Of a DNA stretch of 43,636 bases, positions 2,788-2,870 are shown one piece after another. A program made the translations under genes and the position numbers. The DNA comes from Campylobacterota bacterium. Its GTDB lineage: Bacteria; Campylobacterota; Campylobacteria; Campylobacterales; Sulfurimonadaceae. The stretch covers positions 1-43,636 of the forward strand of contig VCAX01000004.1 in the NCBI GenBank assembly GCA_013607665.1. Reading direction: 5' to 3'. Positions within the stretch are counted from its first letter, which is position 1, and every line of letters begins with the position of its first letter. Under the pieces are notes generated by a model, which ran no database searches, had not been told where the DNA came from, and saw only the letters and a list, made by a program, of their open reading frames with translations.

Positions 2788-2870
2788 CCTTAATTTTATT
2801 TCATAAAATGAAGGAAACCTCCCTCATTATTTTAGTACAGAAAAGGAAGTAATTCCTTTTCTTACGCTAA
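2788..2870 (-). repeat. shared structured leader element, copy A (upstream of fabI)
   Basis: This non-coding block is clearly related to the one at 19609-19692. Both share TTAATTTTATTT, ATAAAATGAA, TTAGT, AAAAGGAA, CCTTTT and CGCT in the same order. It can form an A/U-only hairpin (ATTTTAT 2793-2799; ATAAAAT 2803-2809) next to the fabI Shine-Dalgarno sequence and a 10-base perfect stem with arms 2839-2848 and 2853-2862. Both copies sit about 10 bases before the start codon of a minus-strand gene. The function is unknown; a leader RNA control element is the favoured reading, and a dispersed intergenic repeat is the alternative. Confidence 0.7.

Follow-up and report, generated by a model that had tools for sequence, protein, structure and literature searches.

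Shared leaders of fabI and rpmF in a Sulfurimonas genome are probably copies of a mobile structured-RNA repeat that carries its own ribosome-binding site

The window analyzed here is the whole stretch of 43,636 nucleotides at positions 1 to 43,636 of contig VCAX01000004.1 (GenBank assembly GCA_013607665.1), from a Campylobacterota bacterium of the genus Sulfurimonas. On its minus strand, fabI and rpmF are each preceded by an element of approximately 135 nt composed of a folded module A and, 3' of it, a module B containing a Shine-Dalgarno (SD) sequence. At fabI the element begins 1 nt past the tpiA stop codon, extends up to the fabI start and so occupies the whole tpiA-fabI gap, and the rpmF element fills nearly all of the gap before rpmF. 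Since the flanking genes are codirectional in both cases (tpiA and fabI; an unassigned 117-aa ORF and rpmF), both elements are intercistronic. The rpmF copy is a variant, designated type II, with a different middle part. The features are listed below, with matches to R1, a covariance model of six copies from which the rpmF copy was left out, and R2, a covariance model of module A alone; E-values here and below are rough, as they come from a short calibration.

1957 to 2778, minus strand: fabI (enoyl-ACP reductase, PF13561)
2776 to 2912, minus strand: complete fabI element, type I module A, module B and start codon (R1, E = 1.6e-29; copy used in building R1)
2786 to 2791, minus strand: Shine-Dalgarno AAGGAG within the fabI element
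2788 to 2814, minus strand: P6 of the fabI copy, the A/U hairpin, CCUU paired with SD AAGG (-9.3 kcal/mol)
2807 to 2828, minus strand: P5 of the fabI copy, alternative hairpin freeing the SD (-9.8 kcal/mol)
2835 to 2912, minus strand: module A of the fabI copy (R2 match at 2831-2911, E = 1.5e-15)
2839 to 2862, minus strand: P4 hairpin of the fabI copy, AGAAAAGGAA-UUAC-UUCCUUUUCU
2865 to 2873, minus strand: P3 region of the fabI copy (YGUUAR mini-hairpin), degenerate
2879 to 2896, minus strand: P2 hairpin of the fabI copy, UUCCC/GGAAA with one mismatch; pseudoknot of AGC with loop GCU
2900 to 2910, minus strand: P1 hairpin of the fabI copy, GCAC-AAA-GUGC (P1 covaries across copies)
2914 to 3621, minus strand: tpiA, upstream neighbour of the fabI element (PF00121)
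18445 to 19443, minus strand: plsX, downstream of rpmF (PF02504)
19595 to 19732, minus strand: complete rpmF element, type II module A, module B and start codon (E = 4.9e-10, model without it)
19608 to 19613, minus strand: Shine-Dalgarno AAAGGA of the rpmF copy
19609 to 19637, minus strand: P6 of the rpmF copy
19630 to 19649, minus strand: P5 of the rpmF copy, favoured (extended form, -13.9 kcal/mol)
19661 to 19685, minus strand: P4 of the rpmF copy
19688 to 19715, minus strand: type II middle part AGCUUUAGUCGCC..GGCG.. of the rpmF copy, in place of P2 and P3 (same variant in other Sulfurimonas)
19717 to 19732, minus strand: P1 of the rpmF copy, TGCCTC-ATTA-GAGGCA

A first-pass annotation, made from the letters of the window, had described homologous blocks with two conserved hairpins upstream of fabI and rpmF, and this description holds. 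Mean column identity between the blocks is 76% over the aligned lengths, the A/U hairpin arms AUUUUAU(G/A)AAAUAAAAU are identical, and the second hairpin, with AAAAGG/CCUUUU arms and here named P4, is present in both with differing inner bases. The covariance-model search proposed at that time was carried out: when the 1.53-Mb genome was searched with R1, which lacks the rpmF copy, that copy was recovered at E = 4.9e-10, and the similarity is therefore not due to chance. The block as annotated proved to be the 3' part of a longer element, P1, the P2/pseudoknot hairpin and the degenerate P3 upstream having been missed. The leaders do lie before lipid-related units, as had been stated; being intercistronic, they need not mark the 5' ends of transcription units.

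Module A measures approximately 82 nt and folds into four hairpins, P1 to P4, with a short pseudoknot closing P2. Specifically, P1 has 4-5 bp and a loop that is often CUAG; P2 is a 5-bp stem whose loop, GCYGA, pairs with the RGC immediately 5' of the stem; P3 is a mini-hairpin, YGUUAR, of two pairs; and P4 has approximately 10 bp, with UUAC, CUUG and other loops. In an alignment of 40 sequences, 91% of cells pair and 243 double-change cells are found as compared with 76 in shuffles, and pairing collapses in slid controls (some alignments were fitted to the covariance models, and the genomes are in part MAGs). Within the same alignment the pseudoknot pairs are GC (25) and AU (15), with zero mismatches. 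In a separate count the co-changing triplets of the pseudoknot are GGC:GCC (63), AGC:GCU (33) and GAC:GUC (3). These compensatory changes, together with the position of the element at the ribosome-binding site, bear out the earlier suggestion of a conserved structured RNA. In P4, G.U outnumbers A.C by 92 to 10 over two alignments, an excess which points to folding of a single defined strand, either RNA or single-stranded DNA, and which makes the double-stranded DNA operator that had also been proposed unlikely.

In the type II form, AAGCUUUAGUnGCC..GGC replaces P2-P3; the rpmF copy shares this form with copies at six other loci. A long-range switch, in which the 3' arm of P2 (GGAAACC) would pair with a downstream GGUUUCC, was considered but did not hold up, since covariation in P2 is with the 5' arm of the same stem and the downstream strand does not change with it: in the copy before mrp, the P2 arms read UCUCU/AGAGA and the downstream strand is unchanged. 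Other repeats are found in contact with module A. A second small hairpin (approximately GTRCCC-YTTG-GGGTAT) is inserted in P2, P3, P4 or P6 of some copies with the stems intact (in the P4 loop at four loci, the P2 loop at two, P3 at two and the P6 loop at one); it seems to be a nested repeat that is accepted in loops and nowhere else. Another repeat, AGAAAAAAATTTAGTTTTTTTCTAAGTCGC.., is nested within P3 at two loci and also stands alone in the tpiA-fabI gap of one genome, upstream of fabI. In a group of genomes designated family f20, many module A copies have CTTGCAAAA..TTTTGCAAG and GAGTTCTTGCAAGAACTC hairpins on their flanks, and these appear to constitute a hairpin repeat of their own.

Module B comprises two mutually exclusive hairpins, of which P5 frees the SD and P6 sequesters it. 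Its strand CCUU(C)AU has a partner either upstream, AUGAAGG or AAGGGAA (P5), or downstream, AUUAAGG (P6). For P6, 99% of cells are paired, double changes occur in 7 of 10 pairs, and 20 double-change cells are found vs. 4; for P5, the median duplex energy is -7.1 kcal/mol vs. -3.5 kcal/mol in shuffles. The two hairpins are nearly isoenergetic at fabI (-9.8 vs. -9.3 kcal/mol), rpmF prefers P5 (-13.9 kcal/mol), and the median probability that the SD is paired is 0.24 in isolation. The start codon follows AAGG by 6-11 nt in 43 of the 48 copies with module B; among the other five, three precede the short 49-codon rpmF ORF and two lie within a tandem array. Module B is seen only 3' of module A, either immediately ahead of a start codon, ahead of tRNA-Trp or in a tandem array. 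In two tRNA-Trp copies it has been rewritten and pairs with the first bases of the tRNA, and a third retains AAGGAG. Module B thus has the layout of an SD-sequestering expression platform with a mutually exclusive alternative.

A DNA search with the fabI block matched five further places in the genome, and R1 finds eight full copies there, before fabI, rpmF, ppiC, the DUF6394 gene, dnaK, mrp, rplL and rplK. Among genomes of the same genus, 34 of 37 contain R1 matches; copy numbers per genome range from 0 to more than 50, with approximately 65 in genome G036. Module A as modelled by R2 occurs in 98 of the 299 Campylobacterales genomes sampled (23 of 81 genera), and the genomes with matches in a phylum-wide sample include no order beyond Campylobacterales. 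Module A is found alone in many intergenic positions, and outside Sulfurimonas the element is found in all orientations. The genomes of family f20 that were examined carry 18-36 copies each, approximately two thirds of them oriented toward the downstream gene. Back-to-back module A pairs and tandem arrays also occur; in family f20, arrays of 3-4 copies with a period of approximately 92 bp lie ahead of genes at L288 (2058-2417), L298 (2056-2325) and L299 (2052-2319).

The homology of the two copies in the window, both before lipid-related transcription units, had led to the proposal of a lipid-specific cis-regulator (riboswitch, protein-binding leader or DNA operator) common to fabI and rpmF-plsX-fabH, and further copies at pgpA and at a fabG-like gene agree with it. 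Those who made the proposal held that hits away from lipid genes would speak against it, and other copies do sit before non-lipid genes. In Sulfurimonas, the loci returned by one exact-pattern scan (the matches listed) together with the best matches of relatives include at least 122 copies at start codons, before at least 62 gene families, most of which have no link to lipids. Among the matches listed are rplL, rplS, rpsH, rplI, dnaK, groEL, clpX and efp as well as ilvC, hemE, hypA, mrp, flgG, luxS, adk and dapB; lipid genes are a small minority of them, represented only by fabI, a fabG-like SDR, pgpA and rpmF-plsX. Pfam names for most of 40 genes examined include L7/L12, L19, L32, S8, L9, HSP70, Cpn60, ClpX, EF-P, ketol-acid reductoisomerase, homoserine dehydrogenase, DapB, URO-D, aconitase, HypA, Mrp, NifU, LuxS, NapD, flagellar proteins and adenylate kinase. 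Moreover, module A lies just upstream of 16S rRNA (L139), upstream of 23S rRNA in four rRNA operons (G194, L217), before tRNA-Trp and before many operon-internal cistrons, and antisense copies lie past stop codons read as those of rpsG and frr. The copies are thus neither confined to nor enriched at lipid genes, and they are not conserved at fabI and rpmF orthologues: at fabI the element is missing in 19 of 23 Sulfurimonas, and at rpmF its presence is uneven or it has decayed. Such scattered occurrence at the two genes, with differing types and frequent decay, does not fit a conserved lipid regulon; gene context in Sulfurimonas refutes a lipid-specific regulator, to which we assign hardly any probability.

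One further location deserves description. At L202, two back-to-back module A copies lie at approximately 1415-1582, within a 23S rRNA gene at 246-3082; the LSU model spans the insertion, which forms an intervening sequence and, judged from its flanks, appears to lie at helix 45.

Comparison of orthologous junctions reveals a pattern of gain and loss. The fabI junction is occupied in 4 of 23 Sulfurimonas; G007, the closest relative (95% protein identity), has no element there. The rpmF junction is found empty, with type I and module B, with type II and module B, with type II alone, with an internal deletion, or with remnants. At the DUF6394 junction, 14 of 90 are occupied, one by a truncated copy. 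In bare relatives the DUF6394 start codon overlaps the upstream stop codon (ATGTAATGG), and the upstream gene contains an SD-like AGGAGT. L360 has kept this AGGAGT, which in L361 reads AGGGGT; in both, an element with its own AAGGAG separates the upstream SD-like sequence, which is left behind, from the DUF6394 start codon. Between the DUF6394 copies L358 and L360, P4 differs by C-G to U-A and by A-U to G-U, changes that preserve pairing and indicate that the fold was kept after insertion. Many Sulfurimonas have a highly conserved block resembling a promoter, TTCAGTCACnCCTTAAGATACTTTTTGTATAATC, upstream of the DUF6394 gene (L414-L447), and at L427 and L433 the element is located between this block and the gene.

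Presence and absence at orthologous sites in close relatives is a pattern shared with MITE-like repeats. The 5' boundary is sharp at P1, and the 5' flanks, checked for target-site duplication, are only A-rich and show no clear duplication. Y1 transposases (PF01797; RAYT/IS200 type) do not correlate with copy number and are absent from many high-copy genomes, such as G031, G020, G030 and G005. Mobilization by Y1/RAYT was rejected, as transposase presence does not track copy number. A phage or plasmid origin was rejected as well: the exact pattern has no match in viral contigs and the fabI copy none in plasmids; one partial match lies on a 395-kb Sulfurovum mangrovi replicon. Nor is the element presumably an integron attC, since the core sites do not fit.

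Taken together, these data are best accounted for if the fabI and rpmF leaders belong to a family of structured-RNA repeats, mobile but non-autonomous, that bring a portable ribosome-binding site with them, and do not form a lipid regulator, a reading to which we give a probability of roughly 0.7. Copies are gained, mutated and lost between genes, and where a copy with both modules lands between two genes, the downstream gene would use the element's own ribosome-binding site. The folded, by default SD-open leader may keep downstream translation going, such that insertions inside operons are tolerated, and the balance between P5 and P6 would set the initiation rate. Several observations sit less easily with this account, among them that Y1 transposases do not track copy number and that the flanks show no clear target-site duplication. 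Mere tolerance of insertion would not call for so elaborate a pseudoknot, and this counts against it. In addition, the recurrence of some sites in several species (rplL, dnaK, ppiC, mrp, hypA, rplS), with the compensatory change among closely related DUF6394 copies, suggests a cis function retained beyond selfish spread. More tentatively, module A may represent a new class of pseudoknotted functional RNA, acting as a ribozyme, as a roadblock to nucleases or as a sensor of a ligand, and spreading as a mobile element along with its own switchable ribosome-binding site, an idea we regard as doubtful but worth stating.

Other explanations give different weight to the same observations. Were the element a purely selfish DNA repeat of the REP/BIME or MITE-like kind, its hairpins serving only for recognition of single-stranded DNA by a transposase and having no role as RNA, then back-to-back pairs, tandem arrays, patchy sites and the free orientation outside Sulfurimonas would be expected, and strand-specific folding is also compatible with single-stranded DNA transposition. 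This explanation is weakened by the many high-copy genomes devoid of Y1 transposases and by the SD-sequestering hairpin and the 6-11 nt start spacing in essentially every module B copy, which transposition alone does not explain; we consider it unlikely. Equally unlikely, in our judgment, is an element of RNA processing or stability, in which module A would be a cleavage site or a roadblock to a 5'-exonuclease, defining the 5' end of the RNA that follows and protecting it. The copies upstream of 16S and 23S rRNA, tRNA-Trp and operon-internal cistrons conform to such a role, and back-to-back pairs would form long duplex stems, but the antisense copies past rpsG and frr do not conform to it, and relatives do without the element at these rRNA, tRNA and cistron sites.

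A general cis-regulatory RNA might also be envisaged, with module A as the sensor of a ligand or protein (a growth-state signal, for instance) that toggles P5 and P6 and so controls translation across a broad housekeeping regulon. The compact covarying fold with its pseudoknot, the anatomy of a translational switch given by nearly isoenergetic, mutually exclusive hairpins at the SD, and the recurrent sites at translation and chaperone genes all speak for it. Nevertheless, module A is often without module B and sits before rRNA and tRNA genes or in antisense, carrier genes vary by species and copies decay, no conserved pairing between the modules was found that would transmit a signal, and the element has no Rfam match, so that we judge this explanation slightly more improbable than the two just discussed.

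If the preferred reading of a mobile repeat with a portable ribosome-binding site holds, a family present in approximately one third of the sampled Campylobacterales genomes, and frequently positioned at core-gene ribosome-binding sites, would bring with it a complete, switchable translation start, a direct route for the birth of regulatory leaders. Should module A in addition be an RNA class of its own, the family would amount to a self-spreading portable 5' UTR that rewires housekeeping translation and rRNA/tRNA processing across Campylobacterales. The fabI, rpmF and DUF6394 junctions offer natural before/after pairs for comparison. The case also counsels caution: two copies alone do not make shared leaders a pathway regulon.

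The repeat is previously uncatalogued and belongs to no Rfam family: at Rfam 15 gathering thresholds the window and 19 further loci returned only tRNAs, a permissive search with one copy gave chance-level matches only, and literature searches, covering few subscription papers, found no earlier description of the element. To our knowledge its sequence is unrelated to REP/BIME, ERIC, RU-1/2/3, Correia and BOX. Like these REP/BIME and MITE-like repeats it is short, non-coding, multi-copy, intergenic and hairpin-forming, patchy between relatives and found in inverted pairs and tandem arrays (for reviews of small mobile bacterial sequences see PMC2229807 and PMC2759123); unlike them it folds in a strand-specific, covarying manner, includes a pseudoknot and carries the SD in a bistable hairpin of its 3' module, and, unlike REP/BIME, it has no RAYT/Y1 (PF01797) association. 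With IS200/IS605-derived elements and their ORF-less relatives (omega-RNA, HEARO) it shares the character of a mobile structured single-strand element, but no associated ORF is seen and no Rfam match at gathering thresholds was obtained. The pair at L202 recalls the helix 45 intervening sequences in 23S rRNA of Campylobacter and Helicobacter, being at apparently that site, which for this dispersed element is one site among others. Finally, the pairing of CCUU with the SD AAGG in P6, and its exclusive alternative P5, resemble SD-sequestering riboswitches and RNA thermometers, from which the element differs in being gene-neutral, mobile, unmatched in Rfam and, as module A, often found without the SD module.
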